A stretch of 64,000 nucleotides of DNA. Origin: Thraustochytrium sp. TN22. Its lineage: Eukaryota; Sar; Bigyra; Thraustochytrida; Thraustochytriidae. The first letter of the stretch is position 1. Each line of letters starts with the position of its first letter. The stretch is from contig JABLUY010000035.1 of NCBI GenBank assembly GCA_013306675.1, forward strand, positions 122,764-186,763, in the 5' to 3' direction. Below the pieces are notes generated by a model, which saw nothing but the letters and a program-made list of their open reading frames with translations, had not been told where the DNA came from and searched no databases. Made by a program: the position numbers and the translations under genes. This document shows positions 2,329 through 53,826 of the stretch, in pieces.

Positions 2329-2986
2329 CCGATGCATGGGGGCACGATGGACCGCCAACGGAAAGAGTAGTAAGCTTAGTACATTTACACACATTGCAAC
2401 AAGCTGTGCTCGCACGACTGCACCGACCATGTACAAGAGGAGCACCATGCGCGTGCGTGCAAGAAGAGGCAGATCACACAGCCGCACACGCATGGTGCAA
2501 GAACAGGCAGATGACACCGTCTCGATGCTCCGCCTTGCCAGCGTGCCCATAACCACGAGGCGCGTCCACGGGCGTGTCCGGGATTCGCAGCGACGGCTCT
2601 TGACGTTCTGCTGCTGCGACCGCCGCGGCACGCCACCGGGTCGGCTTGAGGTGTCGCTCGGCCCTCCTGCTCTGTTGCTCTTGCAGTCGGTCTATGGTTC
2701 GAAACTCTCTTGTGTGTTGTTGTGCCTCTCTCTCTGTCTCTGTGGAAAGAAAGCCTTGCGCACTGCCAAGAGACCACATCTTCTCTCCTCTTTTTCATCA
2801 TCATCATCAGGGTCAACGCACGTCTCATGACAAAAAAAGGTGGGCTAGCTAGAGAACGTGCTGGCTGGCTGGCTGGCTGGCTGACTGCTGGCTGGCTGGC
2901 TGGCTGACAGGTGGCTCCAATATGAAGCGTGTGAGGCAGCGAGCACCGCAACGCAACGCAGCGCACGGGACGTGGAAGCGTAGGTA
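2329..2986. other. Intergenic region between convergent genes
   Basis: Separates the 3' ends of the PRPP synthetase (plus strand) and NDUFA9 (minus strand) genes. Frames here lack domain features. It contains pyrimidine-rich tracts and a GGCT tetranucleotide repeat near its right end. Confidence 0.5.
2860..2906. repeat. (GGCT)n microsatellite
   Basis: Tandem GGCT units in two blocks, interrupted by a short ctgactgct segment. It lies in the shared 3' intergenic region. Confidence 0.85.
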
Positions 2987-4171
2987 TTACTGCTGCTGAT
3001 GGTGGGGATCAGCATGCTTGAGGTCGGCGTAGTGGCCACCCTCGCGGTACGAGTAGAGGAACTTGAAGGCCTTGGTCTCGAAGTCGGCAACGTCGTTGAT
3101 GCCGAGGTTGGCGAAGGACTTCTCGTCGCCGGTGGCAGTGGGGCAGACCTCGTGCATGAGCTTGACGGTGTCGTGGGTGATCATGGGGCGGGGCAGGAAG
3201 TTGAGGGCCTTGCCGGTGAGCTCGGCGGCGGCGTTGGGGACCTCGACGAAGTCCTTCTTGACGCCGATCTGGTGCATGACGTACTCCCAGATCTGCTTGT
3301 GGGTGTAGGCGTGCTTGCCGCTGAGGTTGTACGTGTAGCCGGCGGTGGCGAAGTTCTCGGCCGCGGTGGTGATGCCGCGCGCGACGTCGCCGACGTAGAG
3401 CGGGTAGAGCTCGGCGTCGCCGCCGCCGACAAGCGGGACGTAGGGGAGGTTCTTGGAGACGAAGGCATAGAGGTTGAGGAAACGGTCCTCCTCGCCGTAG
3501 AAGACGTTGGGCTTGATAATGACGGCGCCGGGGAACTCCTCGGCGACGAGGGCGTCGCCCTCGGCCTTGGTGCGCGCGTACTCGGAGGCGGAGTCCGGGT
3601 TGGCGTAGGCGCACGAGGTGTGCACGAGGTGCTTGCAGTTCTCCTCGCGGGCGATGCGCGCCACGAGCTTGGCGGCGTCGACGTGGACGTCGCGGAAGCT
3701 GCTGTTGATGATGGTGGGCGCGTAGTGCTTGGTCTCGTAGTACTTGCCCATGAGGTTGATGACGGTGTCGCAACCGCGAATGGTGGCGCGCACGGACTCC
3801 TCGTCCTTGATGCTAATGTACGAGGCGGAGAGCTTGCCGTAGTCGGCGCACACCTTGAGGTGGCGCCAGCCCATGTCGTCGCCGCGCGTGCCGATGACGA
3901 TGTTGTTGCCGGACTTGCCCAGCTCGTTCACCACGTAGGCGCCCAGGAAGCCCGTGGCGCCAAAGACGGCCACGTTGCGCCCGGTCCGCGAGTGGCGGCC
4001 GCCCGTGCCCGCCGGCACGCCGTTGTACATGTGCATGCGCGGCACGTGCGAGCTCGGCGGCTTGTCGAGGCCGGTCGAGTCCGTGCTCATGAGCCGCGCC
4101 GCGCCGGCCGCCGCGCCGCACCGCCGCACCTCACGGCGCGCGGCCGACGTCGCCACGTTCGAAAGCATCAT
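2987..4171 (-). CDS. NADH dehydrogenase [ubiquinone] 1 alpha subcomplex subunit 9 (NDUFA9-like)
   Basis: Accessory subunit of mitochondrial complex I with an atypical short-chain dehydrogenase/reductase fold that binds NADPH. The 394-residue protein starts with MMLSNVATSAARREVRR, an Arg/Ser/Ala-rich mitochondrial presequence with a plausible cleavage near RLMS. The nucleotide-binding loop GATGFLG is at 71-77. Family stretches follow: VINLMGKYYETK, the HLVHTSCAYAN segment, then KPNVFYGEEDRFLN. The catalytic Tyr-x3-Lys is present as YARTK, though the family is not thought to act as a dehydrogenase. The open frame extends upstream to 4468, but that part is low-complexity Arg/Ala and the presequence begins at the Met-Met at 4171. 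The role is confident by family. Confidence 0.92.
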   Translation of the reverse strand: MMLSNVATSAARREVRRCGAAAGAARLMSTDSTGLDKPPSSHVPRMHMYNGVPAGTGGRHSRTGRNVAVFGATGFLGAYVVNELGKSGNNIVIGTRGDDMGWRHLKVCADYGKLSASYISIKDEESVRATIRGCDTVINLMGKYYETKHYAPTIINSSFRDVHVDAAKLVARIAREENCKHLVHTSCAYANPDSASEYARTKAEGDALVAEEFPGAVIIKPNVFYGEEDRFLNLYAFVSKNLPYVPLVGGGDAELYPLYVGDVARGITTAAENFATAGYTYNLSGKHAYTHKQIWEYVMHQIGVKKDFVEVPNAAAELTGKALNFLPRPMITHDTVKLMHEVCPTATGDEKSFANLGINDVADFETKAFKFLYSYREGGHYADLKHADPHHQQQ

Positions 4172-4628
4172 CCCTCCCTCCCTCCCTCCGGCCGCGCTCG
4201 CGCTCGCGCTCCGCCGCTCGGCGCCGCCGCGCCGCGCCGCTGCCTGGCCGCCGCTGAGCCGCGCCGCTGCCTGGCCGCCCGCCGCCTGGCTCGCCGCTGC
4301 CGCGCCCGCGCGAGTCTGCGCGCGCCCGCGCGCCTCGCCTCGCCGCGCCGCCTCGCCTCGCCTCGCTCGCCGCAGCCGCGCAGCCAGCCGGCCGGAAGCG
4401 CCGCCACTGCGCAGGCCCCCCCTCGGCGGAACCCGCGCGCGCGCGCCGGCGGATCCTCGCCCTCTCACAGGAAAGACATCAACACTGCAGCGCAGAGCAG
4501 GCTAGGCTAGTACCCGGCGGAGCAGGGAGACTCGGAGCGCAGCGCGCTGGGCCTGGCCGCTGGCGGGGGAGGAGCGCGACCTGCGCGGCGTCACGCAGGT
4601 AAACGTGCTTGAAGCGTAGATTGGCTCT

Positions 4629-32604: not shown

Positions 32605-34848
32605 TCAGCGCATCGCCTCACTGGAGAGCACGACGAATGAGCTCGGCCAAAAATCCTCCTCCTCGTAGTACCGGCGACGCACGGGCAGCGACTCCTCCTC
32701 GAGAAAGAGCCCCGCGCAAAAGTCGGGCGTGGTCTTGATGTAGTCGCCAAAGGGAGCATAGCCCGGGCGGTCCGGGATGGACTCGTTCACGCACAGGATC
32801 CTCTTGCCGCAGTCCACGGCCTGGCGAAGCTCGCGGCGCACAGCGGCGCTGCTAAAGACGCCCTGCGTCAGGACGAGCACGAAGGTGCGCGTGTCGCGCA
32901 CGCCGTCCATCATGGCCTGCATGTTGAGGTTGCCCCGAAAATCCTGCGAGATCCAAACGTCGAGCCCGCGGGCGCGGAGCCGGTCCGAGAGCAGCTGCGC
33001 GAGGTCGCCGCCATAGTCCTCCTTGTGGCTGAGAAAGACGTGGCTCGTGAGACCAGGAGGGAGCACGGGCACCGTGTACCGCGGCACGTCCGTACCACGC
33101 TCGTCCGAGTTGAGCGGACCGATGCCGTCGTCAAAGAAGGGTGCAAAGAAGGCCGTTGCTGCAACCTCCACGTTCCCGTCCGGGTCCGTGCCCCAGACGT
33201 CCTTGTCGCGGACGTGGCGCGCCTCGGCCACGTCCTCATATCGCACGCGCACCACCCGCGAGCCGGGGCTGCGCAGCAAAAGCTGCGGGCTGAGTCCGTG
33301 GAAGAGTGCCTCCTTCTGCCCCTCAAACATGGACACGAGCAGCTTGACGATCTTGGCCGGGCGCTCCACGTCGGTGCGCACCGTGATGCGAATCACGTCG
33401 CCGAGGACCTCAAGCAGGAAGCAGTCGCGCCCGAAAAAGACGCGCGCCGTCTTGCGGTCCACCTCGGGCGGCAAGGGCTGCCGGGAACGAGACGTGGAGA
33501 GGACGCCCTCGCTCAGCGCGTAGGTCGCGCACTGCGCCACGAGGCGGTGAAAAACACCGTTCGGCAGGAAGAACGACGAAAAGTCCAGGTCGCACGAGGC
33601 GCCACGCTCGAAGCTCGAGGTCTTCACCTCCTGGACCGAGTCCGACAGCAGACCCGAGACCAGGTACGAGTCGGACCCATCGAAGCGCCACGCGCACAGC
33701 AGCAGGTTGGCCTCCATGAAGGCGATCAGGTAGTCCACCTGCTTGCCCCCCCAGAGCCAGTCCAGCAGCGCCCGAGACGCCACGCCGTCCTTCTCGCGCA
33801 TGCGCACCAGCGCCGAAAGCAGCCCGGCCGCCTGCAGCGCCTCGTTGCTGTACAAGCCATGCATGTGCATGTCGTCCGCAATGACGCGCGCCAGCTTGTC
33901 CAGCAGCCACTGCGGCTCCAGGACGACCACGCGCGCCAGCGTCTCCGACCCGCGCAGGTGCACCACCACGCCGAGACCGTGAAAGTACCGCAGCATCGCG
34001 TCCACGTCCGCGCCAGAGCGGCCGTACCGGGCCGCCAGCTCCAGGACGGCCTCGTACAGGACAAAGGGCTCCTTCGTCAGCAGGAGGTCCTCGTGCACCT
34101 TGAGCCACGCCAGCGGCACCTCCTGCTTCATGTAGTCCTGCTGCACCGCCGTTGACACGACGGCCTTGCGCAGCTCCGACGCGCGCTCCGGGTCGTGGCT
34201 GCTGTTGTCCACCGCGAAGAACTGATACCCGCCCTTGGGCTTCACCAGCGTCGACATGGCGTCCAGCTCCAGCTGCGACAGCAACACGCGGTCCACCTTG
34301 CGCAGCTCCGCCTCGTGGCTCACCTGGTCCAGGTAGGTGCCCACCAGGAGCACCGGAGCGCCCGGCGCGTGCAGCCGGATGCTGTTGAGCCAGAAGCGCA
34401 GGTACTCCACCGCCGCCTCGCGCGACTCGCGCCCCAGGACCTCGCGCATGTCGAAGACCACCAGGTACAGGCCCTTGTCCGTGAGGAAGATGTGGTGCAG
34501 CGCGTAAAACACCTGCTGGCCGCCGTAGTCCCAGATCGTGAAGCTCACGTCCGATCCCACCTTGGCCTCCCCGCGCAGCACCGCCTGGTCCGCCTCCGTC
34601 AGCTCGAACTGCTGCGCCGTCTCCTCCTCCGACAGCACCGGGGGGGGCGCCGGCGCGCCCGACGACGACGACGACGACGACGTGCCCGAGACGCGACGCA
34701 GCGAGGCGCGCACGCTCTGACCCACGGCCTGGACCGCCTGGCGCAGCGCGGCCGACGCGCGACGGGTGCGTCCGGCCGGCGACGGCTCCATCGCCGCCGC
34801 CAGCAGCAGCAGCAGCGCCTCCTTGCGCACCTGCATGAAGAGCTCGCC
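32605..34848 (-). CDS. ROC-COR-TIR protein, C-terminal part (5' end lost at assembly gap)
   Basis: Downstream part of a ROCO-family protein, open from the gap edge to its stop. It begins inside the ROC GTPase domain at GELFMQVRKEAL and contains the switch II signature WDYGGQQVF and VGTYLDQV. The COR region follows with its hydrophobic helices. The C-terminus is a TIR domain (about 33051 to 32770): strand and BB-loop SHVFLSHKEDYGGDLAQLL, then WISQDFRGNLNM, then VLVLTQGVFSSAAVRREL. The glutamate of RREL (codon 32830-32832) sits where catalytic Glu lies in NADase TIR domains (RPS4 Glu88 position). ROCO proteins are large GTPases; TIR domains can hydrolyse NAD or scaffold. A role in immune-type signalling is inferred. 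Confidence 0.85.
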   Translation of the reverse strand, partial: GELFMQVRKEALLLLLAAAMEPSPAGRTRRASAALRQAVQAVGQSVRASLRRVSGTSSSSSSSGAPAPPPVLSEEETAQQFELTEADQAVLRGEAKVGSDVSFTIWDYGGQQVFYALHHIFLTDKGLYLVVFDMREVLGRESREAAVEYLRFWLNSIRLHAPGAPVLLVGTYLDQVSHEAELRKVDRVLLSQLELDAMSTLVKPKGGYQFFAVDNSSHDPERASELRKAVVSTAVQQDYMKQEVPLAWLKVHEDLLLTKEPFVLYEAVLELAARYGRSGADVDAMLRYFHGLGVVVHLRGSETLARVVVLEPQWLLDKLARVIADDMHMHGLYSNEALQAAGLLSALVRMREKDGVASRALLDWLWGGKQVDYLIAFMEANLLLCAWRFDGSDSYLVSGLLSDSVQEVKTSSFERGASCDLDFSSFFLPNGVFHRLVAQCATYALSEGVLSTSRSRQPLPPEVDRKTARVFFGRDCFLLEVLGDVIRITVRTDVERPAKIVKLLVSMFEGQKEALFHGLSPQLLLRSPGSRVVRVRYEDVAEARHVRDKDVWGTDPDGNVEVAATAFFAPFFDDGIGPLNSDERGTDVPRYTVPVLPPGLTSHVFLSHKEDYGGDLAQLLSDRLRARGLDVWISQDFRGNLNMQAMMDGVRDTRTFVLVLTQGVFSSAAVRRELRQAVDCGKRILCVNESIPDRPGYAPFGDYIKTTPDFCAGLFLEEESLPVRRRYYEEEDFWPSSFVVLSSEAMR

Positions 34849-34854
34849 NNNNNN
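34849..34854. other. Assembly gap (6 N)
   Basis: A run of six N lies between two near-identical ROC segments, so the local order and copy number are uncertain. Base counts across it may not be real. Confidence 0.99.
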
Positions 34855-37800
34855 TGCAGCGCGTAAAACACCTGCTGGCCGCCGTAGTCCCAGATCGTGA
34901 AGCTCACGTCCGATCCCACCTTGGCCTCCCCGCGCAGCACCACCTGGTCCGCCTCCGTCAGCGCGAACTGCTGCGCCGTTTCCTCCTTTGAGAGCACCGG
35001 GGTGCGGGGCGTGTCCGTGGGCACAGGCGCGTCCCTCGCCGTCGAGGGGCCGCCCGAGCCGCGACGCAGTGAGGCGCATACGCCCTGGCCAAGAGCCTTG
35101 GCGGCCTGCCGTAGCGGAAGCCACGCGCAACAAGTCCTTTCGACCGACACCGGCTCCGGCGCCTCCAGCAGCAGCAGGAGCGCCTCTTTGCGCACCTGCA
35201 TAAAGAGCTCACCAATATCCGACTCAATCTCCACCAGATCCTCGCCCTGCACGCGCGTACGCAGCACGTCCGCCACCTGCGTCGACACGTGCTCTGCCAC
35301 CGGCGCCTGCTTGCACATGGACCGCTGCGTCGATGTCTTGCCTGCCTCGCCCTGGCCCACGATCATCAGCTTGCACCGGCCCCACGGCCGCTTGCCCCCG
35401 CCCTGCACGGCTGCCTGCAGCGCTGCGCCATAGCGCGAGCTGCCAACCATCTTTGGCGCATCCACAGGTACAGGGTTCCTTCTATTCCGTGCGAGCGCTG
35501 CCTCGATCCTGGCCAAGATCGACGGCTCGGTGATGTTATTGCCATGGATGCTGCAGGATTTGAGCGTTTTGCGCAGAAGAGGTCAGCTTTCGATTTCACC
35601 GGTCAGCATGCAGGAAAGCGCTCGCGCCGATCGATGCGCTCGCCTTGCTCACAACGAGCCAAGGCCGACAGGCAGAGGAGATGAACGTACAACAGGTCCT
35701 TGATCCAGTAGTTCTCCTCGAGGACCTCGGCCAGAGCCTCCGCGCCATCATTGCCGATGACGTTGTGTTGTAGGCTGTCAGCACAGAGCAGCGGGCATTC
35801 TCGTTAGCCATGGCGGCCCTATTGCGCTTGAAGCCCGCCGTGGCGCCATGCAAATTGACCACACGGCTCGCTCGCTCGCTCGCTCGCTCGCTTGGCGGCC
35901 CCGCTCGCACTCCAGCACGCTTCACCTGTTGCACGTAGTGCAAGACAGTTCGAACCCACCTCAGCGACCTCAACGACCGATTGCGTTGCAGAGCGCGCGC
36001 AAGTGCCTGCGCGCCTTTGTTGCCGATAAAGTTGCTGGAGAGTCTGCGGTAAAACATCATGAGAACATGCTCGGTCAGTTTGTATGCTGCGCGCGCGCCG
36101 CGTCTCCATGCACCTGAACCGCTTGCGCGGCGTACCCAGACCGCCAGCATGCCCGTGTGCCCGCCCACCTTCTCTCCACGTGCCCGACGTACTCCAGATG
36201 GACAATCACAACGCTGGCAGCCAGCCAGGCCGCCACTGCTTCGGCGCCGGGGTCGCCCATGTTGTTGTCGGCAAGGCTGTCGTCCGCGAGCAGCCGTTCA
36301 CGCAGTATGAGCCCGCCCGGCACATCAGTCAACATCTCGCCGTCATCTCTCCGAAGTATTTCTCTATCGCGCGCCTCGCTGCGGGGACACACCGGGCTGT
36401 TCGGTGAACGTATGACCACGTCTCGACAGCCCACCGACGGGTCTGCCGCGCCGAGCCACGCCAAGCCCCCGCGCGTGGCTTGAGCTGCTGCGAACGCGCG
36501 GACTGCAAGCAGTTCACACCAAGCGCTCAGACGGGTTGCCGTCTGGCCATAGCGCCGGGCATGCCGCTGCCATGGACCTTACTTACCCCAGATCCCAGAG
36601 GGTGGTGTTGCCTTGGAGCGCCCTGATCAGGGCCGTCGTGCCCGCAGCACGAAAATTGTTACCCCATAGCCCAATCACACCTCTATGCTTACTCGTATCC
36701 GCCTACCACGCGGGGGTCCCTCGGTGACGCCCGGCACAGGGGGCACTAAAGCGTATTAAGAGGGTACTTTACTCCCGATTTGCTCCAAAAAAGTGGCCTA
36801 GAGTCTGGCGAAGTTAGTTCCGCATTCGATCAAAAACGCAGCGATGGGGCCGAGCTTGAAGAGGCCCACTCGAAGCGACCCAAGGCTCCTGCCCCCTATT
36901 CATTTTGGCCGAAGGCGTGGTGGTTAGGATGAGATGAGCTCGGCAGTTCGCCCAGAGCGGCTTTGGGGGGAGCTCGCGCGCGACTTCGTCGCGGAGCGCG
37001 CTGGAGCCGCAGGCGCTGCGGCGCGCGGCTGCAGGCGGCCCTGGCGGGTGCCTTGTGCCTGCTCTCAGCTCGCACGCCCCTGCCGCAGCGCTTGGACGTG
37101 GAGTCGGGCCCGCACTGCGACATCATGGCATCGGCGAGGCCTAACCACCGCGTGGAGGACGACAGCGACAGCGACAGCGACAGCGAGTTCGTGCCCCTGG
37201 ACAAGCGGGACACAGGGGACGAAGACGAAGAAGGAGAGGAGCTTGGCGACGAGGATGCTCGTGCTGAGGCCGCTGCGCAGCAAGACTTCGAAGACATACT
37301 TGCGTTGGTCGACGAACCGACGCGTGGTGCGAGTGCATGTTCGAGGTCGGCCTCATTCAGCACAAGACCGTTCCGGGGCTCGCAGTCTCGCCGGATGGAG
37401 TCGCTCGCGTCCGGCTTCCAGGCGCGGAGTGCGACGCATCGTCAGTACTATGCAGCGTCGAGATCAAGACGCGCGTCGCGCCTGGAGGCGCGGTAGACGC
37501 ACGTATCGTGAGCACCCAGATGAACACGTGGGGGACGAGACTTGGTGGAAGGCCATACCTGCCGAGCACCGCGCGCAAGTCTTGCACCAAGCTGTGGTCC
37601 TCCAAATCGATCACGTGCTCTACGTTGCTGCCAGCACGAGTTCGTGTTTGTACGCCTGCCTCGTTGAAGTGCCTCCGGACGCCCGGCTCGCCATGGAGCG
37701 CGCTCTGAAACCGTGGGCGGACAAGCTCACGACATGGGCGCACCAGAGCATCGACAGCGGGTGCGCCGCCCAAGCCACCTGCCATCTTCGGCGAGGAGGA

Positions 37801-42082: not shown

Positions 42083-45000
42083 TCACTCGTCAGGGGGCTG
42101 GATGGCGGGGTCGCAGCGGATGAGGCGCTGCTTAAAGTCCTCGATGGAGCGCTCGGTGCGATAGGGGTCGATGCCGTGCGGGACCCAGAAGCGCATGAGC
42201 TCCGAGAAGGAGAAGGTGGCGCCGTCGATCTCGACCGGGTCCTCGATGGCGTCGCCGTAGAGGTTGGTGCGGGAGAGCGAGATGCGCTTGTGGTTGGTGG
42301 GCAGGGACTCGTAGGTGGTGGCCCTGGAGTAGTCGAGGCGGTTCTGACGCTGCCACTCGGGCCACTCGGCGAGCCATGCCTCAAAGTCCTCCTCGGAGAT
42401 CGCGCGGATCTTGCGACAGACATCAAAGACCTCCGAGGTGGACAGGTCGGTATAGTTCATGTAGACCATGCCGCGCGAGGAGACGGGCAGGTTGAGCGGG
42501 ACGCGCAGGTCGATCTCAAAGCGTAGGTAGACGCAGACGTCGTCGACGCCGCGGTAGCCGCCGCGTTTGGCGATGGAGAGCGCCGCGGCCTCGTGCACGG
42601 CACCGAGACGCATGATGCGGCGGCCGACCTCGCGCAGCTTATCGCGATCGCCGCGGGCGCCGACGATCTCCTTGAGCACGTGCATCTGGTTGAGCGCCCA
42701 GATGGGCTTGTCCATGCAGGCGTCCACGCTGTCGACCATGCGCAGAATGAGCTCCTCGCGCGCCTCCTCCTCGTCGGCCAGCAGCCGTAGAATCACCATA
42801 ATGCGCTCGCCCAGGTTGCGCCGCATGGCCTTCTTGCGGAACTCCTGCGCGTCGCGCAGCTTGTTGAGGAACATGCGCACGCCGCGTACTTCGCCGGGCG
42901 CCACGCACTTGTTCAGGTCCAGGAGCGGGCGCACCTTGCGCTTGCCGTCGCGACCGCGGCGGCTGCTCGAGCTGCTTGTGCTGCTGCGCGCGCTGCGCCG
43001 CCGGTCGCTCGCCGAAGAGGATGCAGCGGCAGCACCGCCATCGGCGGCAGCGCCTCCTGAGACCTCTTCGGCTCCAGGACCCGCCTCCGCGCCCTCGGCC
43101 TTGACGCCATCGCGCGCCTCCAAGATGGCCCGCGCCTCTGGCGAGGTGGGGTTGCCCTTCTTGTCCACCCAGCCGGCCGTGACGCTCCAGAAGCGCACGG
43201 CATCGTCCAGGTCGTTGAAGCTGTCGTCCGAGTCGTAGTCCGAATCGTCGTCCGAGCCGCCGTTGTTGCCCTGATAGTCGCTACGGCCCTCATGGTGCTC
43301 AATGGTCGCGATGAGGTTGGTCACGCGCTCGCGAAGGCTCTCGTCCGCGAAATCGCTGGACCACCGAAAGTCGACGTTGGGCGGGAATCCCGAGTCCTTG
43401 CGCCAGCGCTTAATGCACTCCGACTCCTGCGAAATGGCCGTCGTGGCGAGCGTGATCGCGTGCTGAGGCGTCCACACCACGTCCGGAACATCCACCTTGG
43501 CCGCCTCGTCGCGCAGCCGCTCCTCTTCCTCCTCCGCGAGCGCCAGCTGAGTCTGCAGGTGTTCCACCTCCTCGATCTCGGCCGGCGCGAGGTACATGGC
43601 GTCCATCTCGGGCCGCCAGCTTGCCGAGGAGGAAGCGCTCGCCGCCGAGACCACCGAGGTCACCGAGGGCCGCGGCATGCGCCAGTGCCGCGCGAAGCGG
43701 CCCAGGACGCGCCGCGCGTTCGAGGACGCCGACGACCCGCGGCGGGCCGGCGGCGAGGGCGGCCCCGGCATCCCGGCCTCGCCGGTGGGCTCACCCGCCG
43801 AGGCAGCCGCCTCCTCGACCTCGGCCTCCTCCGGGAGCGCGGGGAGCAACACGGAGGCATCCTCGAGGCCGCCGTCGCTGGCCTCCATGGCCGCGGCCTC
43901 AGCGGCCTTGCGCGCCTTGCGCGCCTCGGATCGCGCCTTGCGCCGGATCTCCTGGATCGCGAGACGCGCCATCTTGCCGCGCTTGGCGCAGCTGTCCGCA
44001 TTTGCTTCCAGCACCGACCGCGCCGTGGCGCGCTCCTCGCGTAGCGCCGTGGCCTCCGTCACGGCCTTGGCGTGGTCGATGACGCGCTGCACAATGCCCT
44101 CCGGCAGGTCGTCCAGCATGACGCAGCCCGTCAGGTTGAGTTGGGCGCTCACGCGCAGGTCCTCTGGAAGTTCCTTCAGATCGCCACAGCCCAGCAGACC
44201 GAGCGAACCATTCACGTCGAGTCCAGACGGGACGGAGTTGAACTTGACGCAGTCAATCACGTACAACGAGACCGCCCCGGCCCGCGCACCGGCGCTGCGG
44301 CTGTCCTCGAGGTCCTCGAAGCGCATCGGCGCCTCGTCCGACTCGTCCGGCTCCTCCGCGTCCGGCTCCTCCTCAGGCTCCTCCCCCGCCGCCTCCGCCG
44401 CCGCCTGGGCCGACGCAGACTTGGATTCGGACAGCGCCACCATGTACTGGTCCTGGATGCGCGCCTCGATGCTCGAGCGGCTCCTGAGAAGAGGCGGGCG
44501 CCCGAGCCTGCTTGCCACGGCGCTGGCAAGCCCACCCTTGCGCGAGGACCTGCGCTCGCCGCCCGTGGGCAGTGCCATGGGCGCCGGCGACCACTTGGTC
44601 GGGAGCGTTTCCAGCTCCGGGCACTCGTTGATGATGAAACGGCTCGCGCGCACATCACGCGAGATCTTCTTGAGCTTGAGGCAATTGTGCAGGATGGCGT
44701 CTCCCGCAACGTCCAACGCGCCGATGGACTCGCACTCATCTGCCATGCCAAGCACAAGCTGACCAAAGACAGTGGTCTTGCGCGGGAGCGCCTTGAGGCT
44801 GCTGCTGCCAACGACCCTGAAAAACACATTGGTCATGGCGTCCGGGCGCTTCATCAGCGCCGGGTAACCCACGGTGACCTGGGCATGCCCCAGCGATTCG
44901 AGCGCCATGCAATAGTGCATGTCGATGCCCTCATAGCAGATGATCTCCGACGGCATCACCTGCAGCGAGGTGCAGTGCTGGAGGTGCAGGGACCCATCCG

Positions 45001-48000
45001 GAACGCGGTTGTTCTGCTCGAAAAAGTGCAGGCCGGGGTCAGGAATGCCAATCTCCAGGCGGTCCGCGCCCAACTTCTCCAACACGGAGCAGTGCGAGAG
45101 GTGGAGATCGTGCAGCACGCGATCCAGGTTGACCTCCTTGAGCAGCGGGCAGCGGCGGAAGTTCACTTTGCCGCCCGTGACGATGCCTCGCGCCGCCGAC
45201 TTGATCTGGCCCACGAGCGTACCACCGTGCACCGTGAGTAGATTCGGCATGGCGCTCGCCTTGAGGTCGCCCAGTACGCGCACCGGGTGCAGCTCGCGCA
45301 GACCGGCGCCGGCGAGCGTCAGCGTGCCCAACACCTCGCTCATGCCAAAGTGCTCGAGCGCCGTGCAGCCCGTGAGGTCCACGTCGCCGTTGGCCTCCGG
45401 GTCCACGACAAAGTAGCCATTCTTGAGGCGCTTGAGCACGCGGCCAACGCGGAGGCCGCGCGGGACGATGCGCAGCGACGTGCAGTGCTGCGCCGTGAGC
45501 GATGCCAGGTGCGCCGTAGACGGAATGCTGCGCAGGGCCGGGCAGTCCGAGACGTTCAGATGCAGCTTGCCCTCAGAGCGGCCCAGCGCCTCGGCCGGGA
45601 GCTCGCGCAGGTTGGTGCACCGCTGAACTTTGAGGTGCTTGAGGTTCGGTGGCAGCGCGTCCGGGATCGCGACCAGATCCTCGAAGCCACTCAGCGTCAA
45701 CGTCGTGAGCGCCCGGAATCGCACGCTCAGATGCTCCGCGAGCTCTACGGACTCCCGGAACAGGTTGGAGCACCTCTGGATCGACAGCGTCGTGAGCTGA
45801 TCGAAGCCGTCCTCTGGCAGGTCAAAGGCCGTCAGCTTCGGGAGGTCTTCCAGCGCCAGGGTGCTCTCCAGGCTCGACACAGCGCAGGTCTCCAGGTTAG
45901 CAAGCCGCATCAGGCTGACCACCCCTGTCACCGTGTAGGGGGGTCCGAGCTTGCGAAGCGCGTTGCAGTCCTCCACCTCGAGAAACGCCAGCGTGGGCGC
46001 GCCCTTGAATTCGATCGCTTCGAGGACATCGCAGTACCTCACAGTGACCGACAAACGCTCCCCGACGACGACGTCCTCTTCGACCAGCTTCTCCATCGCG
46101 GACATGTTCGTGATGCTCAGGGTGGTCCCGTTCTGCGGGGTGCCGGTCACCTCCAGGTTGCGCGCAATCGTCTTGAGGGCCGGGCAGTTCGTGAAGCGCG
46201 TGTCAGAGGTGCACACGAGGTCGCCGGCCGCCACGCGCTCCAGCTTGTTGCAGTACTCGACCGTGAGCATACCAGGCACCTTTGCGACCTGGTCCTTCTG
46301 CGACCACAGCTGGAGGACCTCATTGCAAGAGCTAATGGAGACGACGGAAACCTGCTCCCAGTCCTCGTTGCCCTCTTCGTCTTGCGATTCGCGGATCGTG
46401 AAGCGGACGCCGTCCAGCGAAAACTTGCTTCGCAGGCCGGACAGGTACATCTTCTCAAAGACCTCGATGTTCTCGAAGCCCTGCACCGCGTCGCAGCGGT
46501 CCATGAAGAGGCTCCCCACGCGCACGTTGCGCACCGAGTCAAAGGCCGCCTCGGTGCGGGCCGTCTCCTGCTTGACACGCAGGGTCTCGCGCTTCTCGCG
46601 CCTCGCCTCGCCGCGCTGCAGGTGGGCGCGCCACTGCTCCCGCTTGTGCCGCCGGCGCGACTTGCGCTGCTGCTCCTTGCGCACAGCGATGCGCTCGTCG
46701 CGCTGCGCGCGCCGCTCCGCGCGGCCTGCGCGCCGCGCCTCGCGCGCCGCGATGGCGTTCTCGTCGTCACCGAGGTCGTCATCCGTAGAGTCATCGGACA
46801 CGAAGTCGCGCGTGTCGAAGCTCTGCGCCGCGTCGATGAAGCGCCCGCGCATCGAGAAGAGCGGGACGCCGATCCGGCGCAGGTCGGTGTGGGTGGCGTC
46901 ACGGCAAGCCTGCATGGTCCGCAAGCCGCTGCTCAGCACCGTGTCCGCGTCATAGTATTCCTCTGCGTCCGAGTAGCCGTCCAAAAAGTCGCGCAAGAAA
47001 TAGCGCACCATGGCCTCGTCGCGGCGCGCCTCCCGCTCGCCCAAGTTCCCGCTGCCGCCCGCCGTCTCCAGGGGGATGCGGCCGAGCTCCGCCAGAATGC
47101 GCTGCCGCTGCGCAGGCAGCTCGATGCCACACGCCTGTAGGTCAGAGTCCGTCACGCGGCGTGCCTGCAGGACGGTGCGGTAGCCGTTGTCCGTGAAGCG
47201 CGTGAAGAGCGGCGCCTCGCCCGCGGCGCAAAAGGCGTCAAAGAGGGCGCGCATCTCGCCCGAGAGGGACGTCGGGTCGATGCCTGCCGAGTTCCCCATA
47301 TCGCCGCTGCCGCCATTCGCGTCGGCCTCGGCTACGTCACTCAGATGCTCGTAGTCCGAGGCGCTCGAGGCCTCGTCCGACGCCTGCTCCGCGTGCGCGA
47401 AGAGGGCCAGACACGTGACTTGCTCCGCCATGGTCATGCCGCTCCGCGCAAAGGGGCGACGCTCGCCCTGCTGCGAGAGCGCGCGCAACTGGCGCAGCGT
47501 CACGAGGCCCTCCGATTCCAGGCTCGGCCAGTACGCCTGTAGACCGTTCTCGCGCAGCATCCGCTGCACGCGCGCCGACGCCGTGCGCGCACGCGCCTCC
47601 CAGAGCGCGCCCATGAGCGTCGCGCGGTCGGCGAAGCTGTCCACGCCCAGCGCCAGGAGGCTGGCGTGCGAGAGCCGCGCGGCGGCGTGAAGCGGCTTGC
47701 GCCGTGAGCGCGCCACCCGCGCCAGCACCGCGTCCGCGAAGTGCTCCATGCCGGCACGCGCCAGCACCTGCCGCACGTGCCGCCGCGACCCGTACGGCGG
47801 CCGGCGCGTGCCGGCGGCGGCGGCGACGGCGTCCTCCAACTCGCCCTCTTCCTCTTGTGCTTCGCTGCTGGGCACGCCCGCTTCGCGAGTCTCCTCCGCC
47901 TCCTCGGCCGAGCTCTCCCCGATGTCGGCCTGCGCCTCGTCGTCCTCGAAACCCGAGCTCACCGAGCTGTCCGAGGAGACCGCCGCCGCATCCTGCTGGG

Positions 48001-51000
48001 CGCCCGGCAGGAGCTGCGCGCGCCGCAGCGCCTCCATGATCGCCTCCCGGGTGCCCCAGTCGAGAACGCCGCAGCTGCGCAGGTCCATGCGAGACATGGT
48101 GCGCGCCGCTTCCACCGACGCGAAACCGGCCTGCACAATGGCGTTGTGATAGCGCGTGGCCTCCACCACGTCAAGGACCTCGCGCAGCGCGCGCGGACCG
48201 TCGGCAAGGTTGATCACGACGGCAGACTGCACCACGCCCGCCCGCCGGCGCACGTTCGCATCGGCGTCGTTGCCGTCCCGGGAGCCCGAGGACTGGCTCG
48301 AGGACGCCCGTGAGCGGCCATGTCGGCGCCGCCGGCGCTGCCGCTGCGTGTCGCGCGCCTCAGGCACGCGCGAGCGCCGGCCCTGGTTCTCTGGGGACGG
48401 CACATTCTGCAGCACCTCCATGAGCCGAAGGCGGAATTGGTAGTCGTTGAAGCCGCAGGCGCGCAGCTGCGCGTGCGTCGCGTTGTGGCAGCTGCGCGCC
48501 GTAGTGAAGCGCGCCGCGAAGAGGATGCGCTCGAAACGCTCCAGGCCAGCCGCGAGGAGCGCCGCCCGAATCGCCCCCTCCTCTGAGCCGTCTTCCGCGC
48601 CTGAGTCCTCGGTTTCGCCGGGCCCGGCCTGGCCCGACTCGCGCAAATGCTTTCGAACGCGATTCTTCAGCGCCTTGAGCGTCGTGCGCCTCCGAATCCC
48701 GGCCTTCGCCCTGAGCTCGTCCACCTTGAGCTCATCGAGGGCCCGAAGCGTCACGATGCCGTTCCTAAAGAGGGTCTGAGGATCAGCGCCGAGCTCAACA
48801 AAGATCTGAGCAATGATGCTGCGATCGTCGGGCTCGGCCTCGGCGCCCTCAGCGCCTTCGGCGGTCTTGTCGCTGCCTTCCTCGACCAGGTCCTCCGGAA
48901 GATCGGCCTCTTGAAAGGCCTCGATGATGTCGTGGCGATCCGCGTAGGCGACGATGCCGCAGCGACGGAGGTCGTCGTGCGTCAGCGCCTTGAGCTTGGC
49001 CGTGCTGCACATCCCGTTGCTGGAGAGCGCCGCGTACGCCTTGGTCTGGCCAGCGCCAGCCAGCGCCATGTAAATGGGCGAGGCCTCGAGCGCGCGCTGC
49101 GCCTCCTCGGCTGCGTGGCGCGCCGCCTCGGCGGCCTCGCGGGCGAGGCGCAGCGAGCCGGCCACCTTGTCGGCGTCGCCCGAGCGCTCCACCTTGTCAA
49201 CGATCTCCAGCGTGAAGGCCTCGTGGAGCGCCGTGAGGATGCGCTGGCGCTGCTCGAAGCGGAGGATGCCAAAGTCCCGCATGCGGCCATGCGAGAGGTG
49301 CATGGCCGCGTCGCGCACGGATCGAATGCCAGACTGCGCAAGCGCAAAGCTGAGGCCCTCCGCGTCGATCTCCAGGAGCACCTCGCGGAGCCGCTCCGCG
49401 TCGCGCGACCTGCGATGCGAAGACAGCTCGGACTTGAGCTCCGCGGGCACGCGGCCGCAGCCAATCTCGCGCAGCGCCTTGATACAGGCCTTGCGCTGCG
49501 CCTTCTGGTACATGCCCAGGGACTTGAGATCGCTGTGGGACGCGTTGCGGCACTTGGCCGGGTTGTCGAAGCCGGCGCCCATGATGGCGTCGTAGTGCTC
49601 GCCCAGCCCGAGCGTGTCCAGGACGCGCCGCACCATCTCTTGGTGCTCGAAGCCACCCTCGCTGGAGCTGCCGCTACCATCACTCTCGGACCCGCCACTG
49701 CGGCTGCTGCCGCGGCTGCGGCTGCGGAGGTTCCTTTGGGCCGCCCTGAGAGCTCGGGCACGAAGACCGCCGCCCCACTGCGCGGGGGGGGAGGCGTTGC
49801 TTCCACTATGGCTCGAGGCCCCGCTCGAGCTGCCATCCCCACTGTCGCCACGCTGGCGCTGCCGGTGTCGACGGCGACGCTGCTGCGACGGGCCCGTCGT
49901 GGTCCGCGTCGAGGCGCGCGGCGCCTCGCTCGGCGCCAGGCTACTCACGTCGGACTCGGAGGAGGCGGGGCTCGCACGCGCGGCGGCCCGATGGCGCGGG
50001 GCAGCGGCAAAGGCCGCCAAAATGGCGCGGCGGTCGACCAGGTTCCAGACGCCCAGCCTGCGCAGGTCCTGGTTGGTCAGCCGGCGGCACATCTCCACCG
50101 TGGCGCATTCAGGCAGGCGGCGGAAAAGGTCCACATAGACGCTCATGCCGGCGTCCAGGAGAATCGAGACCACAGCGGCCGCACCGTCCTCGGGCCGGCC
50201 GCGGTCGGCGTCCGGTTCGGCGCCGCCGTCAGCCGCAGCGTCGGCGTCGGCGTCGTTCGTGGAACTTCTCATTGCGCGATACATATCGCGAAAGTGCGTG
50301 ATGATTTCGTCGCGCTGCATGAAGGTACTGACGCCCCAGTTCGAGAGCTGCGCGTGAGTGACGTTGCTCATGTTGGCAATGGAGGTGAAGCCCGCCTGGC
50401 GAATCGAGGGCTCGATAAAACTCGCGTTCAGCGTGTCCAGGGCCTTTCGAATGGCCTCCTGCTCGGAGCCCGCCTCCGCCGTGGTGGCTTCGTCTTCGCT
50501 CTTCTCGCTGGGCGTGTCGCTATCATGTACACTGAAGGCGGACATGTCGGTTGTGCGCTCGCCAAAGTCCTCGAGAGCGAACCAGTCCGTCGGCGTGCAG
50601 TAGTTGACGCGCAGCGACCTGACCTCGAAAACCTCGCCCGAAACGGCGAGCCCGCGGTTGAGGCGGGCATTCTGTATCGAGATGGAGACACGATCGCTGG
50701 AGGCCACCTCGATGGTCCCAGCCAGCGCGTCCATGGCGTAGACGTAGTAGATCTCCACGCTGAGATTCATCGCGGGCAGCGGGTTCAGATACATGGTGTC
50801 CTCCGTGAGAACGTCCATGTTGCGACAGTTGGACACGAAGAGCGCCTCCGTCACCGCGAGCGGGCCCTCACAGATGGCCTTGATCTCCTCGCAGTAGTTC
50901 ACGCGCAGCTCTTGCGCGCTCACCGAGCCGCCCGCCGCGCGCTCCACCTTGTTGCAGTACTCGACCATCATGGTCCCAAACACCGTGAGCGCCCCTGGCG

Positions 51001-52591
51001 TGATCTCCTTGAGTGCCGGGTTCTGGTTCAGGTTGAGGCGGCCCACGCGGAGGTCGCGCGGCGAAATCTGGCGCAGCTTCGGGCAATACTGCACCGAGAC
51101 GGCCAGCGCGCCATCCAGGAGGCCGGCGGGCAAGGTCGTGAGGTCGTCCATGTTGGAGATGGTGAAGGTGCCGCTCACGTGCGCGCAGGCGAGCCAGGGC
51201 GCGGCGCCCGTGACCTTGTTCATGGTGAGGTTGCTCAGCTTCCAGAGCGGGTCCGCGTCGGCGGGGGGCTTGGGCAGCGTGCAGTTCTCGATGCGGACGT
51301 CCTTGCGAGAGCGCAGGCAGGGCGGGAGCGCCGGGAGCTGGATGCCGTCCAGCACGAGCTGCTTGCGCAGGCGCAGGCCGCGCACCTCGGGGGGCCCGTG
51401 CTCGGCCTCGAGAAGTGCGAGGCGCTCGCGCCGCGCCCGCACCAGGCGCTTGTGCTTGCGCCGCCGGCGCCGCTGTCGCTGCTCGCGCGCCACCTTGGCC
51501 AAGACGCGCTCCCGGGATCGGCTGCCGTCAAAGGCGCCGATGATCTGCTGGCGCTCCGCAAAGGTGCGGAAGCCGGCCTCGCTCAGCGGCAGGTGCGTCA
51601 GCGCGCTGCACTGCGTCAGCGTCGTCCACCCGTTCTCCTCGAAGATCGGCAGCCGGTCCTCCATGCCGATGGCGCGCAGCACCTGCCGGATCATGGCGCG
51701 GTCCTCGTCCTCATCGGCCGGCGTGTCCTCCTCGTCGCTCAGGTCCTCGGGCGCGAACTCCTCCGAGGTGTCGCGCTCCTCGTTCTGTGCGTGCCGCGCC
51801 GCGCGCGCCTTGGCCAGCAGGGCGCGCATGCGCTCGCGCTCGCCAAAGGACATCAGACCCACGGTCCTGAGCTCCTCGTGCGTCACCTCGCCACTGAGCG
51901 CCGCCTCCACCAGGCCATTCGCGCTAAAGGCCGCCACGAGGTCGCCGAAACCGCCCTGCTCCAGCGCGCGCGTCAGCTCCGCGACCGGGTCCGTCTTGCC
52001 CGAGTCCTCGTCCGTGTCGTAGTCCACGCCCAGGTCCAGCTTGGGCGCCGCGGCCAGGAGGGCATCCCGCACACGGTTCACGGCCTTCCAGTCTGCGCTG
52101 TCGATGCGCGCGGCCCAATCCTCGATGTACTCGCGTGTCTTCGCGTCCACGATCTCCTTCTTCTTGGCCTTTTCCTGCCGCCGCTCGCGCCGCTCGCGCG
52201 CGCGCTGCTCGCGCGCCGCTCGTCGCGCGCGCCGCCGCGCGCTGCGCGAGCTCGTCGTGCTGCCGCTGCCGTTGCTGCTCGACGCCTCGCTCTCCGACTC
52301 GCTCTCCTCCGACACCGGCGCGCCGTCCGAGTCCGAGTCCGTATCGTCGAAGAGCAGCGCCATCTCCTCCGCCTCGTCCTCGGCCGCCTGCTCGCGTCGC
52401 GCCCGGTTGCGGCCCTCCTCGTCCGAGTCCGGCGGCACCACCACCTGCTCGCCGTCGCCGGGGCCGAGGCCGGCCTCCACCAGGCTCGCGGCCAGCGCCG
52501 CGGCCAGCATATCCTCATCGCTCTGCCCGTCCTGCTGCTGCCGCAGCGCGCGCAGCAGGTACCCGCCGCCGTCGCTGTCCTCGTCGCTCAT
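42083..52591 (-). CDS. Giant multi-domain protein: UIM, 14 SAM-like repeats, LRR-like blocks, NEL-like E3 ligase C-terminus
   Basis: Intronless frame of 3,502 residues. Order: acidic N-terminus with a ubiquitin-interacting motif (residues 24-41, SDEDMLAAALAASLVEAG); about 14 SAM-like repeats of roughly 65 residues starting near 203, 301, 713, 805, 986, 1068, 1173, 1258, 1341, 1466, 1604, 1676, 1783 and 1861, with a recurring ATHxDLRxxG core; two blocks of LRR-like strands with Cys-Asn/Cys-Pro caps (about 400-664 and 2024-2831, such as LTVEYCNKLERV); a charged linker; and a C-terminal domain (about 3240-3502) whose CMDKPIWALNQM (Cys3292) and GRRIMRLGAVHEAAALSIA segments resemble the bacterial NEL E3 ligases. 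NEL enzymes transfer ubiquitin through a Cys-x-Asp cysteine. If the resemblance holds, this is a eukaryotic ubiquitin ligase. The function is inferred. Long frames on the opposite strand are codon-bias shadows. Confidence 0.9.
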   Translation of the reverse strand: MSDEDSDGGGYLLRALRQQQDGQSDEDMLAAALAASLVEAGLGPGDGEQVVVPPDSDEEGRNRARREQAAEDEAEEMALLFDDTDSDSDGAPVSEESESESEASSSNGSGSTTSSRSARRRARRAAREQRARERRERRQEKAKKKEIVDAKTREYIEDWAARIDSADWKAVNRVRDALLAAAPKLDLGVDYDTDEDSGKTDPVAELTRALEQGGFGDLVAAFSANGLVEAALSGEVTHEELRTVGLMSFGERERMRALLAKARAARHAQNEERDTSEEFAPEDLSDEEDTPADEDEDRAMIRQVLRAIGMEDRLPIFEENGWTTLTQCSALTHLPLSEAGFRTFAERQQIIGAFDGSRSRERVLAKVAREQRQRRRRRKHKRLVRARRERLALLEAEHGPPEVRGLRLRKQLVLDGIQLPALPPCLRSRKDVRIENCTLPKPPADADPLWKLSNLTMNKVTGAAPWLACAHVSGTFTISNMDDLTTLPAGLLDGALAVSVQYCPKLRQISPRDLRVGRLNLNQNPALKEITPGALTVFGTMMVEYCNKVERAAGGSVSAQELRVNYCEEIKAICEGPLAVTEALFVSNCRNMDVLTEDTMYLNPLPAMNLSVEIYYVYAMDALAGTIEVASSDRVSISIQNARLNRGLAVSGEVFEVRSLRVNYCTPTDWFALEDFGERTTDMSAFSVHDSDTPSEKSEDEATTAEAGSEQEAIRKALDTLNASFIEPSIRQAGFTSIANMSNVTHAQLSNWGVSTFMQRDEIITHFRDMYRAMRSSTNDADADAAADGGAEPDADRGRPEDGAAAVVSILLDAGMSVYVDLFRRLPECATVEMCRRLTNQDLRRLGVWNLVDRRAILAAFAAAPRHRAAARASPASSESDVSSLAPSEAPRASTRTTTGPSQQRRRRHRQRQRGDSGDGSSSGASSHSGSNASPPAQWGGGLRARALRAAQRNLRSRSRGSSRSGGSESDGSGSSSEGGFEHQEMVRRVLDTLGLGEHYDAIMGAGFDNPAKCRNASHSDLKSLGMYQKAQRKACIKALREIGCGRVPAELKSELSSHRRSRDAERLREVLLEIDAEGLSFALAQSGIRSVRDAAMHLSHGRMRDFGILRFEQRQRILTALHEAFTLEIVDKVERSGDADKVAGSLRLAREAAEAARHAAEEAQRALEASPIYMALAGAGQTKAYAALSSNGMCSTAKLKALTHDDLRRCGIVAYADRHDIIEAFQEADLPEDLVEEGSDKTAEGAEGAEAEPDDRSIIAQIFVELGADPQTLFRNGIVTLRALDELKVDELRAKAGIRRRTTLKALKNRVRKHLRESGQAGPGETEDSGAEDGSEEGAIRAALLAAGLERFERILFAARFTTARSCHNATHAQLRACGFNDYQFRLRLMEVLQNVPSPENQGRRSRVPEARDTQRQRRRRRHGRSRASSSQSSGSRDGNDADANVRRRAGVVQSAVVINLADGPRALREVLDVVEATRYHNAIVQAGFASVEAARTMSRMDLRSCGVLDWGTREAIMEALRRAQLLPGAQQDAAAVSSDSSVSSGFEDDEAQADIGESSAEEAEETREAGVPSSEAQEEEGELEDAVAAAAGTRRPPYGSRRHVRQVLARAGMEHFADAVLARVARSRRKPLHAAARLSHASLLALGVDSFADRATLMGALWEARARTASARVQRMLRENGLQAYWPSLESEGLVTLRQLRALSQQGERRPFARSGMTMAEQVTCLALFAHAEQASDEASSASDYEHLSDVAEADANGGSGDMGNSAGIDPTSLSGEMRALFDAFCAAGEAPLFTRFTDNGYRTVLQARRVTDSDLQACGIELPAQRQRILAELGRIPLETAGGSGNLGEREARRDEAMVRYFLRDFLDGYSDAEEYYDADTVLSSGLRTMQACRDATHTDLRRIGVPLFSMRGRFIDAAQSFDTRDFVSDDSTDDDLGDDENAIAAREARRAGRAERRAQRDERIAVRKEQQRKSRRRHKREQWRAHLQRGEARREKRETLRVKQETARTEAAFDSVRNVRVGSLFMDRCDAVQGFENIEVFEKMYLSGLRSKFSLDGVRFTIRESQDEEGNEDWEQVSVVSISSCNEVLQLWSQKDQVAKVPGMLTVEYCNKLERVAAGDLVCTSDTRFTNCPALKTIARNLEVTGTPQNGTTLSITNMSAMEKLVEEDVVVGERLSVTVRYCDVLEAIEFKGAPTLAFLEVEDCNALRKLGPPYTVTGVVSLMRLANLETCAVSSLESTLALEDLPKLTAFDLPEDGFDQLTTLSIQRCSNLFRESVELAEHLSVRFRALTTLTLSGFEDLVAIPDALPPNLKHLKVQRCTNLRELPAEALGRSEGKLHLNVSDCPALRSIPSTAHLASLTAQHCTSLRIVPRGLRVGRVLKRLKNGYFVVDPEANGDVDLTGCTALEHFGMSEVLGTLTLAGAGLRELHPVRVLGDLKASAMPNLLTVHGGTLVGQIKSAARGIVTGGKVNFRRCPLLKEVNLDRVLHDLHLSHCSVLEKLGADRLEIGIPDPGLHFFEQNNRVPDGSLHLQHCTSLQVMPSEIICYEGIDMHYCMALESLGHAQVTVGYPALMKRPDAMTNVFFRVVGSSSLKALPRKTTVFGQLVLGMADECESIGALDVAGDAILHNCLKLKKISRDVRASRFIINECPELETLPTKWSPAPMALPTGGERRSSRKGGLASAVASRLGRPPLLRSRSSIEARIQDQYMVALSESKSASAQAAAEAAGEEPEEEPDAEEPDESDEAPMRFEDLEDSRSAGARAGAVSLYVIDCVKFNSVPSGLDVNGSLGLLGCGDLKELPEDLRVSAQLNLTGCVMLDDLPEGIVQRVIDHAKAVTEATALREERATARSVLEANADSCAKRGKMARLAIQEIRRKARSEARKARKAAEAAAMEASDGGLEDASVLLPALPEEAEVEEAAASAGEPTGEAGMPGPPSPPARRGSSASSNARRVLGRFARHWRMPRPSVTSVVSAASASSSASWRPEMDAMYLAPAEIEEVEHLQTQLALAEEEEERLRDEAAKVDVPDVVWTPQHAITLATTAISQESECIKRWRKDSGFPPNVDFRWSSDFADESLRERVTNLIATIEHHEGRSDYQGNNGGSDDDSDYDSDDSFNDLDDAVRFWSVTAGWVDKKGNPTSPEARAILEARDGVKAEGAEAGPGAEEVSGGAAADGGAAAASSSASDRRRSARSSTSSSSSRRGRDGKRKVRPLLDLNKCVAPGEVRGVRMFLNKLRDAQEFRKKAMRRNLGERIMVILRLLADEEEAREELILRMVDSVDACMDKPIWALNQMHVLKEIVGARGDRDKLREVGRRIMRLGAVHEAAALSIAKRGGYRGVDDVCVYLRFEIDLRVPLNLPVSSRGMVYMNYTDLSTSEVFDVCRKIRAISEEDFEAWLAEWPEWQRQNRLDYSRATTYESLPTNHKRISLSRTNLYGDAIEDPVEIDGATFSFSELMRFWVPHGIDPYRTERSIEDFKQRLIRCDPAIQPPDE

Positions 52592-53826
52592 GGTCCCCGC
52601 CTCGCCCGAGGCGCCTCCTCAGCTCCGCCGCGCTGCGCCCGGTTGCGCGTCGCTGCGCGTTGCTGCGTGTTGCTGCGCCTCTCGCGCCCGGGTCCTCCTC
52701 GCGTAGCTCGTCCTCCTCGTCCAGTAGGTCGCGGGCGGCGGCGTACACGCGTAGGCGCGTGCCGCTCTCGATCCCTCGCCCGCGCGGGGAGGGGGGGGGG
52801 CCGCGCCGCCGCGCCGCGCCGCGCTGCGCCGCGCCGCACCGCGCCGCGCCGTGCCGGCCGCTCGCGGGCCTGCCGACCGCCTCGCGCGCCGCGCCGCGCG
52901 CCGCCGCCTTGCCGCCGCGCGCGCGCAGCCGAGCGCGAACGGGTCTGCTTTGCTTGGTTTGAATGAATGGCCAATTCGAAATTCGAAAATGGCACGTGCA
53001 CGCGCGCTGGCTGGCCGCGCCGCGCCGCGCCGGGCCGCGCCACGCCGCGCGCGTCTCGCCGCCGCCGCGCCGCGCAGGCCGCGCCGAGGGGCGGGGCCGC
53101 TCGCCGCCGCTCCGCGCTCGCCTGCGTCTGCCCGCGCGCGCGCGCGCTTCTGCGGCCGCGCGCGGGGGCGGGGCCGCGGCCTCGACCCTCGCTCTCGACG
53201 CGGACGCTGTGCGCACCCCCCTGCCCGCTCTCCCGCGCCGGCGCAACCAGGCACGCCGCGGCGAGGGCCCCGCTCGGGGGGTCAGGCCAGGACTCCCCGG
53301 TGTGCGTTCCGCGGGCGTGCCGCAAACGTTCCTGCCCGAGGGGAGCGCGGCCGCGGCGCCACAAGCAGGGCTTGTGCGCTAACTAAAAGGATGCTCAGGC
53401 TCGAAGTCGGCCTCTCTCAGGCTACTACGCTTCAAGTTACGTGCACGTCACGGTGCAGGCCTGCAGCAGGCGAGGTCGCATCATCAAGCTCGAGGCTCTT
53501 CCCCAGACACCTCTCGGGATCTCGTGCATTTTTTCCTGCCTGCGTTGGCAACTGGTAGTCGCGGAGGCGCGCGTCTTCTTCGACGAGACTTCAAGGTCCG
53601 CGTCGTACGTGGGCATGCACTGCAGGGGTGACGGCTCCGCCTTGCAGCACGTGCAGCTGCGTGCCCGAGTCGCAACCTGAAAGGTCGACACCGCTTGGTC
53701 CGCGAAGTTGTCGCTCGGCTTGCGGTCCGAGGCCGAGGCCGGGTCAACGTTTATCCAAAAAGTCGCGGCGCGGCGGCGTCAGCGGCTAGACCTGAACAAT
53801 CCCGCTCGGCGCGCGGCGCGGGCGCA
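52592..53826. other. Intergenic region, divergent promoters
   Basis: About 1.2 kb between the giant gene (minus) and the hydrolase gene (plus). It is very GC-rich with gccgcgccgc repeats, then a more mixed segment from 53380 onward. No gene is supported. Confidence 0.5.

Follow-up and report, generated by a model that had tools for sequence, protein, structure and literature searches.

The NEL gene and its catalytic core

We analyzed a window of 64,000 nucleotides from the thraustochytrid Thraustochytrium sp. TN22 (contig JABLUY010000035.1, positions 122,764 to 186,763), in which a minus-strand frame runs through 3502 amino acids without a stop and ends in a domain of the NEL type, known mainly from ubiquitin ligases (E3s) among bacterial effectors. 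The domains follow one another in the order SAM repeats, LRR-like blocks, linker, NEL core and C-terminal tail (Table 1).

Table 1. Features of the NEL gene (positions in the window)
Feature	Position	Strand	Evidence
NEL gene, uninterrupted 3502-aa frame	42083..52591	-	~13 SAM repeats, LRR-like blocks, NEL core, U-box-like tail
SAM repeat region, residues ~209-1925	46817..51967	-	Pfam SAM_2 1.3e-28, SAM_1 1.6e-25; repeat HMM
LRR-like blocks, residues ~2313-2828	44108..45655	-	HMM built on P0006 and P0012 LRRs
NEL catalytic core, residues 3228-3425 (Pfam match 3240-3415)	42317..42910	-	Pfam, PDB sequence matches, predicted structure
Cys3292 codon, presumed thioester nucleophile	42716..42718	-	C in 45/45 eukaryotic, 27/29 bacterial rows
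Asp3294 codon, CxD motif	42710..42712	-	D in 45/45 eukaryotic, 28/29 bacterial rows
Asp3350 codon, presumed counterpart of IpaH9.8 Asp397	42542..42544	-	D in 44/45 eukaryotic, 24/29 bacterial rows
U-box-like C-terminal domain, residues 3438-3502	42086..42280	-	profile comparisons and predicted structure

A first-pass annotation, made from the letters of the DNA, had claimed a NEL-like domain at the C-terminus of this protein, with a Cys-x-Asp motif at Cys3292. The Pfam model PF14496 matched the domain significantly (E = 1.7e-24, 86.9 bits against a curated cut-off of 24), and the motif proved exact, with Asp3294 following the cysteine. Comparison with PDB chain sequences gave 14 matches at E ≤1, the best being SlrP (8.4e-10); the others were SspH1, SspH2 and nine IpaH or 'invasion plasmid antigen' chains at ≤5e-5, along with two unrelated weak ones. 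Counted on the alignment, Cys3292 pairs with position 332 in the SspH1 chain, which has 540 residues. Given that this construct comprises residues 161-700, the position is C492, which is described as the catalytic cysteine of SspH1 in passages of PMC12506513. Passages of PMC9320238 report that the CXD motif, together with Asp339 and Asp397 of IpaH9.8, is important for activity. Asp3294 and Asp3350 are the conserved counterparts of these two aspartates; we equate Asp3350 with Asp397 from the alignment and the spacing to the cysteine.

The structure predicted for residues 3228-3502 also agreed with the annotation: its core is all-helical and matches solved NELs. In this model, Cys3292 and Asp3294 lie in the loop that joins two helices (model residues 63-67), as expected for a catalytic loop. 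We predict that the core is an E3 that acts through a cysteine-ubiquitin thioester.

Paralogues, relatives and selection

Although the annotation had described one gene, the gene is no singleton: the genome holds 25 NEL matches, each above the cut-off and free of stops, with four clustered on contig C335, four on C453 and three on C158. The cysteine and the CxD aspartate are invariant in all 25. Of other Pfam domains, two of the frames carry SPRY, two or three carry LRR and one carries Arm, while the window protein alone has SAM; these counts are lower bounds, since at least three frames run off a contig end.

Three protein searches, of which the first and third scored the 8000 best candidates only, returned at least 20, 4 and at least 3 relatives, respectively. 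Among the matches listed, Hondaea fermentalgiana supplies the nearest proteins that bear a name, identity to the NEL region of one paralogue reaching 77%. They carry names such as disease resistance protein, importin, tubulin, nephrocystin and ryanodine receptor; one hypothetical protein is called NEL domain-containing in UniRef, and PF14496 is precomputed on relatives. Two MMETSP transcripts and one Durusdinium entry are further relatives. P0022 (3458 aa) is collinear with the window protein, showing 60% identity over the NEL region, 47% in a stretch covering residues 3014-3499 and 30-33% elsewhere; the SAM model seeded from the window protein found 12 repeats in it below E 0.01. In P0024 and P0025 of Hondaea, the NEL domain is joined to kinase/TPR or SPRY domains and is internal rather than terminal, so that the core with its tail resembles a module able to move. 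The NEL protein P0007, deposited as a sequence of the dinoflagellate Durusdinium trenchii, was placed inside the thraustochytrid-like clade and is probably a contamination of that assembly.

Next, we compared nonsynonymous and synonymous substitution rates (dN and dS) in ten non-independent paralogue pairs drawn from ten genes of four contigs. In all ten, the core had the lower dN/dS (0.07-0.39, against 0.40-1.00 for the N-terminal part), so that purifying selection is stronger on the core, although one pair showed only a slight gap (0.39 against 0.42); these values and those of dS are rough, because of first-methionine starts, one gene truncated at a contig end and the non-independence of the pairs. 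The dN/dS of the tail exceeded that of the core in eight pairs. In two neighbouring pairs, L041/L047 on C158 and L029/L030 on C453, dS was far lower in the core than in the N-terminal part (0.038 against 0.643 and 0.113 against 0.372), a hint that the core has undergone gene conversion; the reverse order, core dS above N-terminal dS, was seen in two of the ten pairs. Such a pattern of selection would be expected of a family that shares one enzyme and varies in recognition. An immune-type role in recognition agrees with the rapid change of the N-termini and with the neighbouring copies, and other roles fit too.

These data bear on whether the core might be a catalytically dead NEL fold, retained as a scaffold for protein interactions. 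An architecture of 3502 residues with SAM and LRR parts is scaffold-like. However, the cysteine and the CxD aspartate are kept in every eukaryotic row of the alignment and Asp3350 in all but one, and dN/dS is low in the core. We consider a dead scaffold very improbable.

The C-terminal tail

Bacterial NELs end in a helical subdomain that binds E2-ubiquitin (E2, ubiquitin-conjugating enzyme), the thumb, described in passages of PMC12506513 as residues 623-697 of SspH1. The first-pass annotation had likened a W-P-x-W segment to this C-terminal lobe. That comparison did not hold: the segment instead ends the catalytic core, the alignment with SspH2 stops at model residue 198, and the segment that follows is unlike the bacterial thumb. 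Homology to SspH1, SspH2 and IpaH likewise stops at or near W-P-x-W, and the structural alignment ends at SspH2 residue 715, though SspH2 extends to 788. The place of the thumb is taken by the tail, a conserved stretch ~65 residues long, which succeeds the core in all 25 own-genome NEL regions aligned. When the tail was compared with bacterial post-core segments in hhalign, scores of only 7-11 were obtained, and no bacterial-type helical thumb was found. Lacking this thumb, the protein counts as a member of the NEL core family rather than as a canonical bacterial LRR-NEL effector.

The tail resembles a U-box more closely. Against seven U-boxes of the same genome it scored 24.8 in hhalign (E = 4.7e-4, probability 32%), and 21.3 (13%) when the Ufd2-type U-box was left out; with both alignments trimmed, the score was 19.4 (16%). 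In the controls, column shuffles reached at most 15.9 (n = 100) and 18.1 (n = 200), and reversed profiles 11.6 and 13.2. A trimmed profile of 15 tails, taken from 45 after a U-box was already suspected, was run against 177,635 PDB sequences, and E4B U-boxes ranked first, second and fourth of eight matches (E = 0.14-0.8); a U-box profile against the same set retrieved 160 sequences at E ≤10, RINGs included. The predicted tail forms a beta-hairpin, a helix and a strand over about 62 residues and has structural matches to U-boxes at modest Z. In the structure search, 22 rows were confined to model residues ~211-275, nine of them spliceosome chains of an unnamed molecule; TRPV, KCNQ1 and similar helical rows (root-mean-square deviation ~6-8) were also listed, and we regard these as chance.

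Several results weigh against a U-box. The Pfam model (PF04564) matched none of the 25 full proteins at E ≤0.1 and none of nine tails at E ≤10, and a PDB search with a longer profile of nine tails retrieved no U-box. The missing Pfam match, the modest Z and the tail's higher dN/dS than the core in eight of ten pairs would fit a tail that is a structural appendage of a NEL-type E3 whose core, or some other part, binds E2~ubiquitin. Such an appendage is unlikely in our view: the tail follows the core in all the aligned regions, its position is that of the E2-ubiquitin-binding thumb in bacteria, and sequence profiles and model both point to U-boxes. We therefore call the tail U-box-like without assigning it formally to the U-box family; the support from sequence is weak but consistent.

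SAM repeats and LRR-like blocks

Both Pfam SAM models (PF00536/PF07647) exceeded their curated cut-offs (99.4 bits, cut-off 20.5; 89.7 bits, cut-off 23), and a repeat hidden Markov model (HMM) from nine seeds, all of the window protein itself, gave E <0.01 for 13 of the 14 matches listed. Pfam LRR models matched the window protein below cut-off only. However, an HMM from the LRRs of proteins P0006 and P0012 gave a full E of 2.4e-22, best at residues 2787-2828, and the repeats, judged by eye, are of a 21-residue LPxxLxVxGxLxLxxC type. The LRR-then-NEL order claimed by the first-pass annotation is thus retained.

Phylogeny and origin

In a tree of 45 eukaryotic and 29 bacterial cores, a single branch (support 100/99) separated the eukaryotes from the bacteria, and this split occurred in 100% of 200 bootstrap trees, all unrooted. 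The window protein paired with a 2047-aa paralogue on C188 (100/97). The bacterial rows represent 29 of the 33 loci L062-L094 (L067 and L082 were dropped for stops, L090 and L094 as partial), L055-L061 were not used, and P0022-P0028 are absent from the tree. NEL was detected in nine of 398 Pseudomonadota genomes searched, plus two Bradyrhizobium genomes, one of which is among the 398; a plasmid search gave three records, all from Bradyrhizobium, at 26-29% identity. A set of 14 control genomes had no E2 or ubiquitin matches either, and is hence uninformative on other eukaryotes.

The simplest reading would be one old transfer from bacteria to a eukaryote, followed by expansion. The annotation's suggestion that the gene derives from bacteria survives as the most likely origin, although it is unproven because the tree is unrooted. 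The opposite course, a eukaryotic origin of the NEL core with later movement to bacteria, would also leave each group on its own side of one branch of an unrooted tree. However, the named eukaryotic matches are those of Hondaea and the one Durusdinium entry, and the bacterial NELs have longer branches among themselves, so that we consider it quite improbable.

We also looked for closer sources. A pattern scan of IMG/VR for viral relatives gave 28 pattern matches and one of GTDB for a close bacterial donor gave 59, neither including a relative; the patterns were family-specific, and a viral origin and a close bacterial donor are therefore rejected only weakly.

Some bacterial NELs are unusual in themselves. 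Downstream of VgrG and Hcp genes of a type VI secretion system, Bradyrhizobium plasmid L055 encodes a 606-aa NEL protein (2464-4284) whose C-terminus resembles, by eye, a C48/Ulp1-type protease; it may therefore be a NEL-deSUMOylase fusion. In Pseudomonadota (L071-L075, L077-L081, L084-L086, L088, L089, L092 and L093), NEL occurs in frames of ~1570-2430 aa, far larger than the studied effectors. The catalytic cysteine is missing in two of the 29 bacterial core rows.

Genomic context

Since known examples of this catalytic core are bacterial, we considered whether the gene could be a bacterial contamination or an assembly artefact. The genome (37.9 Mb in 453 contigs) has 28 E2 matches, one E2 gene being on the contig of the window, 30 ubiquitin-domain matches, tandem copies among them, and a Ufd2/UBE4-type gene. 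The window also encodes a myosin and a Roc-COR-TIR protein. GC content at third codon positions is 0.885 in the NEL gene (0.916 in the NEL part), close to the 0.867-0.879 of the three neighbours measured. With the collinear relative P0022 and the clustering of Hondaea proteins with the NEL family added, contamination is scarcely conceivable, and we rejected it on these computational data.

The Roc-COR-TIR protein is an 842-aa frame at 32605-35133 (-) with Roc, COR-A and TIR domains, and may be an immune-type signalling protein of the protist. Antisense to the NEL gene lies a 1439-aa open frame (48647-52966, +), which the high GC content most likely explains as a shadow frame.

Proposed mechanism

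We propose, with a probability of roughly 0.7, that the window gene encodes an endogenous eukaryotic NEL-type E3, one of 25 paralogues in the genome. The SAM repeats would build an assembly, and the LRR-like blocks would hold the substrate and restrain the core. E2~ubiquitin would dock on the U-box-like tail, which would replace the bacterial helical thumb; ubiquitin would then move to Cys3292, aided by Asp3294 and Asp3350, and pass from there to a lysine of the LRR-held substrate. The family would most likely go back to one gain of a bacterial NEL gene, later multiplied and re-fitted. Bacterial NELs are restrained by their own LRR according to passages of PMC9320238, by a mechanism described as debated in passages of PMC12506513; by analogy, LRR autoinhibition of the thraustochytrid core is possible. 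The analysis itself shows the domain content, the conserved catalytic residues, the predicted folds, the family size and the stronger purifying selection on the core; thioester catalysis, E2 docking by the tail, autoinhibition, substrates and the direction of transfer are what we infer.

A broader proposal, which we consider evenly balanced, is that a chimaeric type of E3 exists in thraustochytrid-like protists, in which a domesticated bacterial NEL thioester core has exchanged its thumb for a eukaryotic UBE4-like U-box. An RBR-like relay would then have arisen independently, in an expanded family for recognition whose core is conserved while its LRR ends change fast, possibly serving cell-autonomous immunity.

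Comparison with known systems

The first-pass annotation held that a chromosomal protist NEL would be new. The databases qualify this, since the Hondaea entry and the precomputed PF14496 matches had preceded us. Among the matches listed from open-access PMC articles, which leave subscription papers mostly uncovered, we found no paper on this family, and none on endogenous eukaryotic NEL ligases besides a claim that NLR-like genes of Klebsormidium carry a bacterial NEL-like domain (PMC7145615). In passages of that paper, the claim is based on a domain of an LRR-type superfamily to which high homology with NEL is ascribed, and these passages mention no catalytic motif; its grounds seem weak to us. 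Passages of PMC12506513 present NEL as a class evolved by some bacteria, without structural homology to eukaryotic E3s. An endogenous eukaryotic family of this size would show that a NEL-type core can be domesticated, and assignment to NEL corrects the database names of the Hondaea relatives.

Like the bacterial LRR-NEL effectors SspH1, SspH2, SlrP and IpaH, the window protein has a helical core, a CxD motif, a second conserved aspartate and LRRs before NEL. Unlike them, it is encoded by a eukaryote in a family whose members reach 3502 aa, some with SAM, SPRY or Arm domains, and bears a U-box-like domain instead of the helical thumb. Relative to known NELs, the novelty would thus lie at the C-terminus, where profiles and the model place a U-box-like segment at the position of the thumb. 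In its predicted fold and a DPV motif, the tail is like the U-boxes of Ufd2/UBE4, CHIP and PUB (PF04564), whereas it is missed by the Pfam model and joined to a thioester-type core; U-box ligases are not known to form a thioester. RBR and HECT ligases, whose catalytic fold is not known to be related to NEL, would be similar in proposed working only, with E2 docking followed by two-step transfer through a cysteine of the E3. If the tail docks E2, the family would be a natural experiment in which a thioester core from bacteria is combined with an E2 dock of eukaryotic type; this apparent combination suggests the domestication and re-fitting of a bacterial tool.
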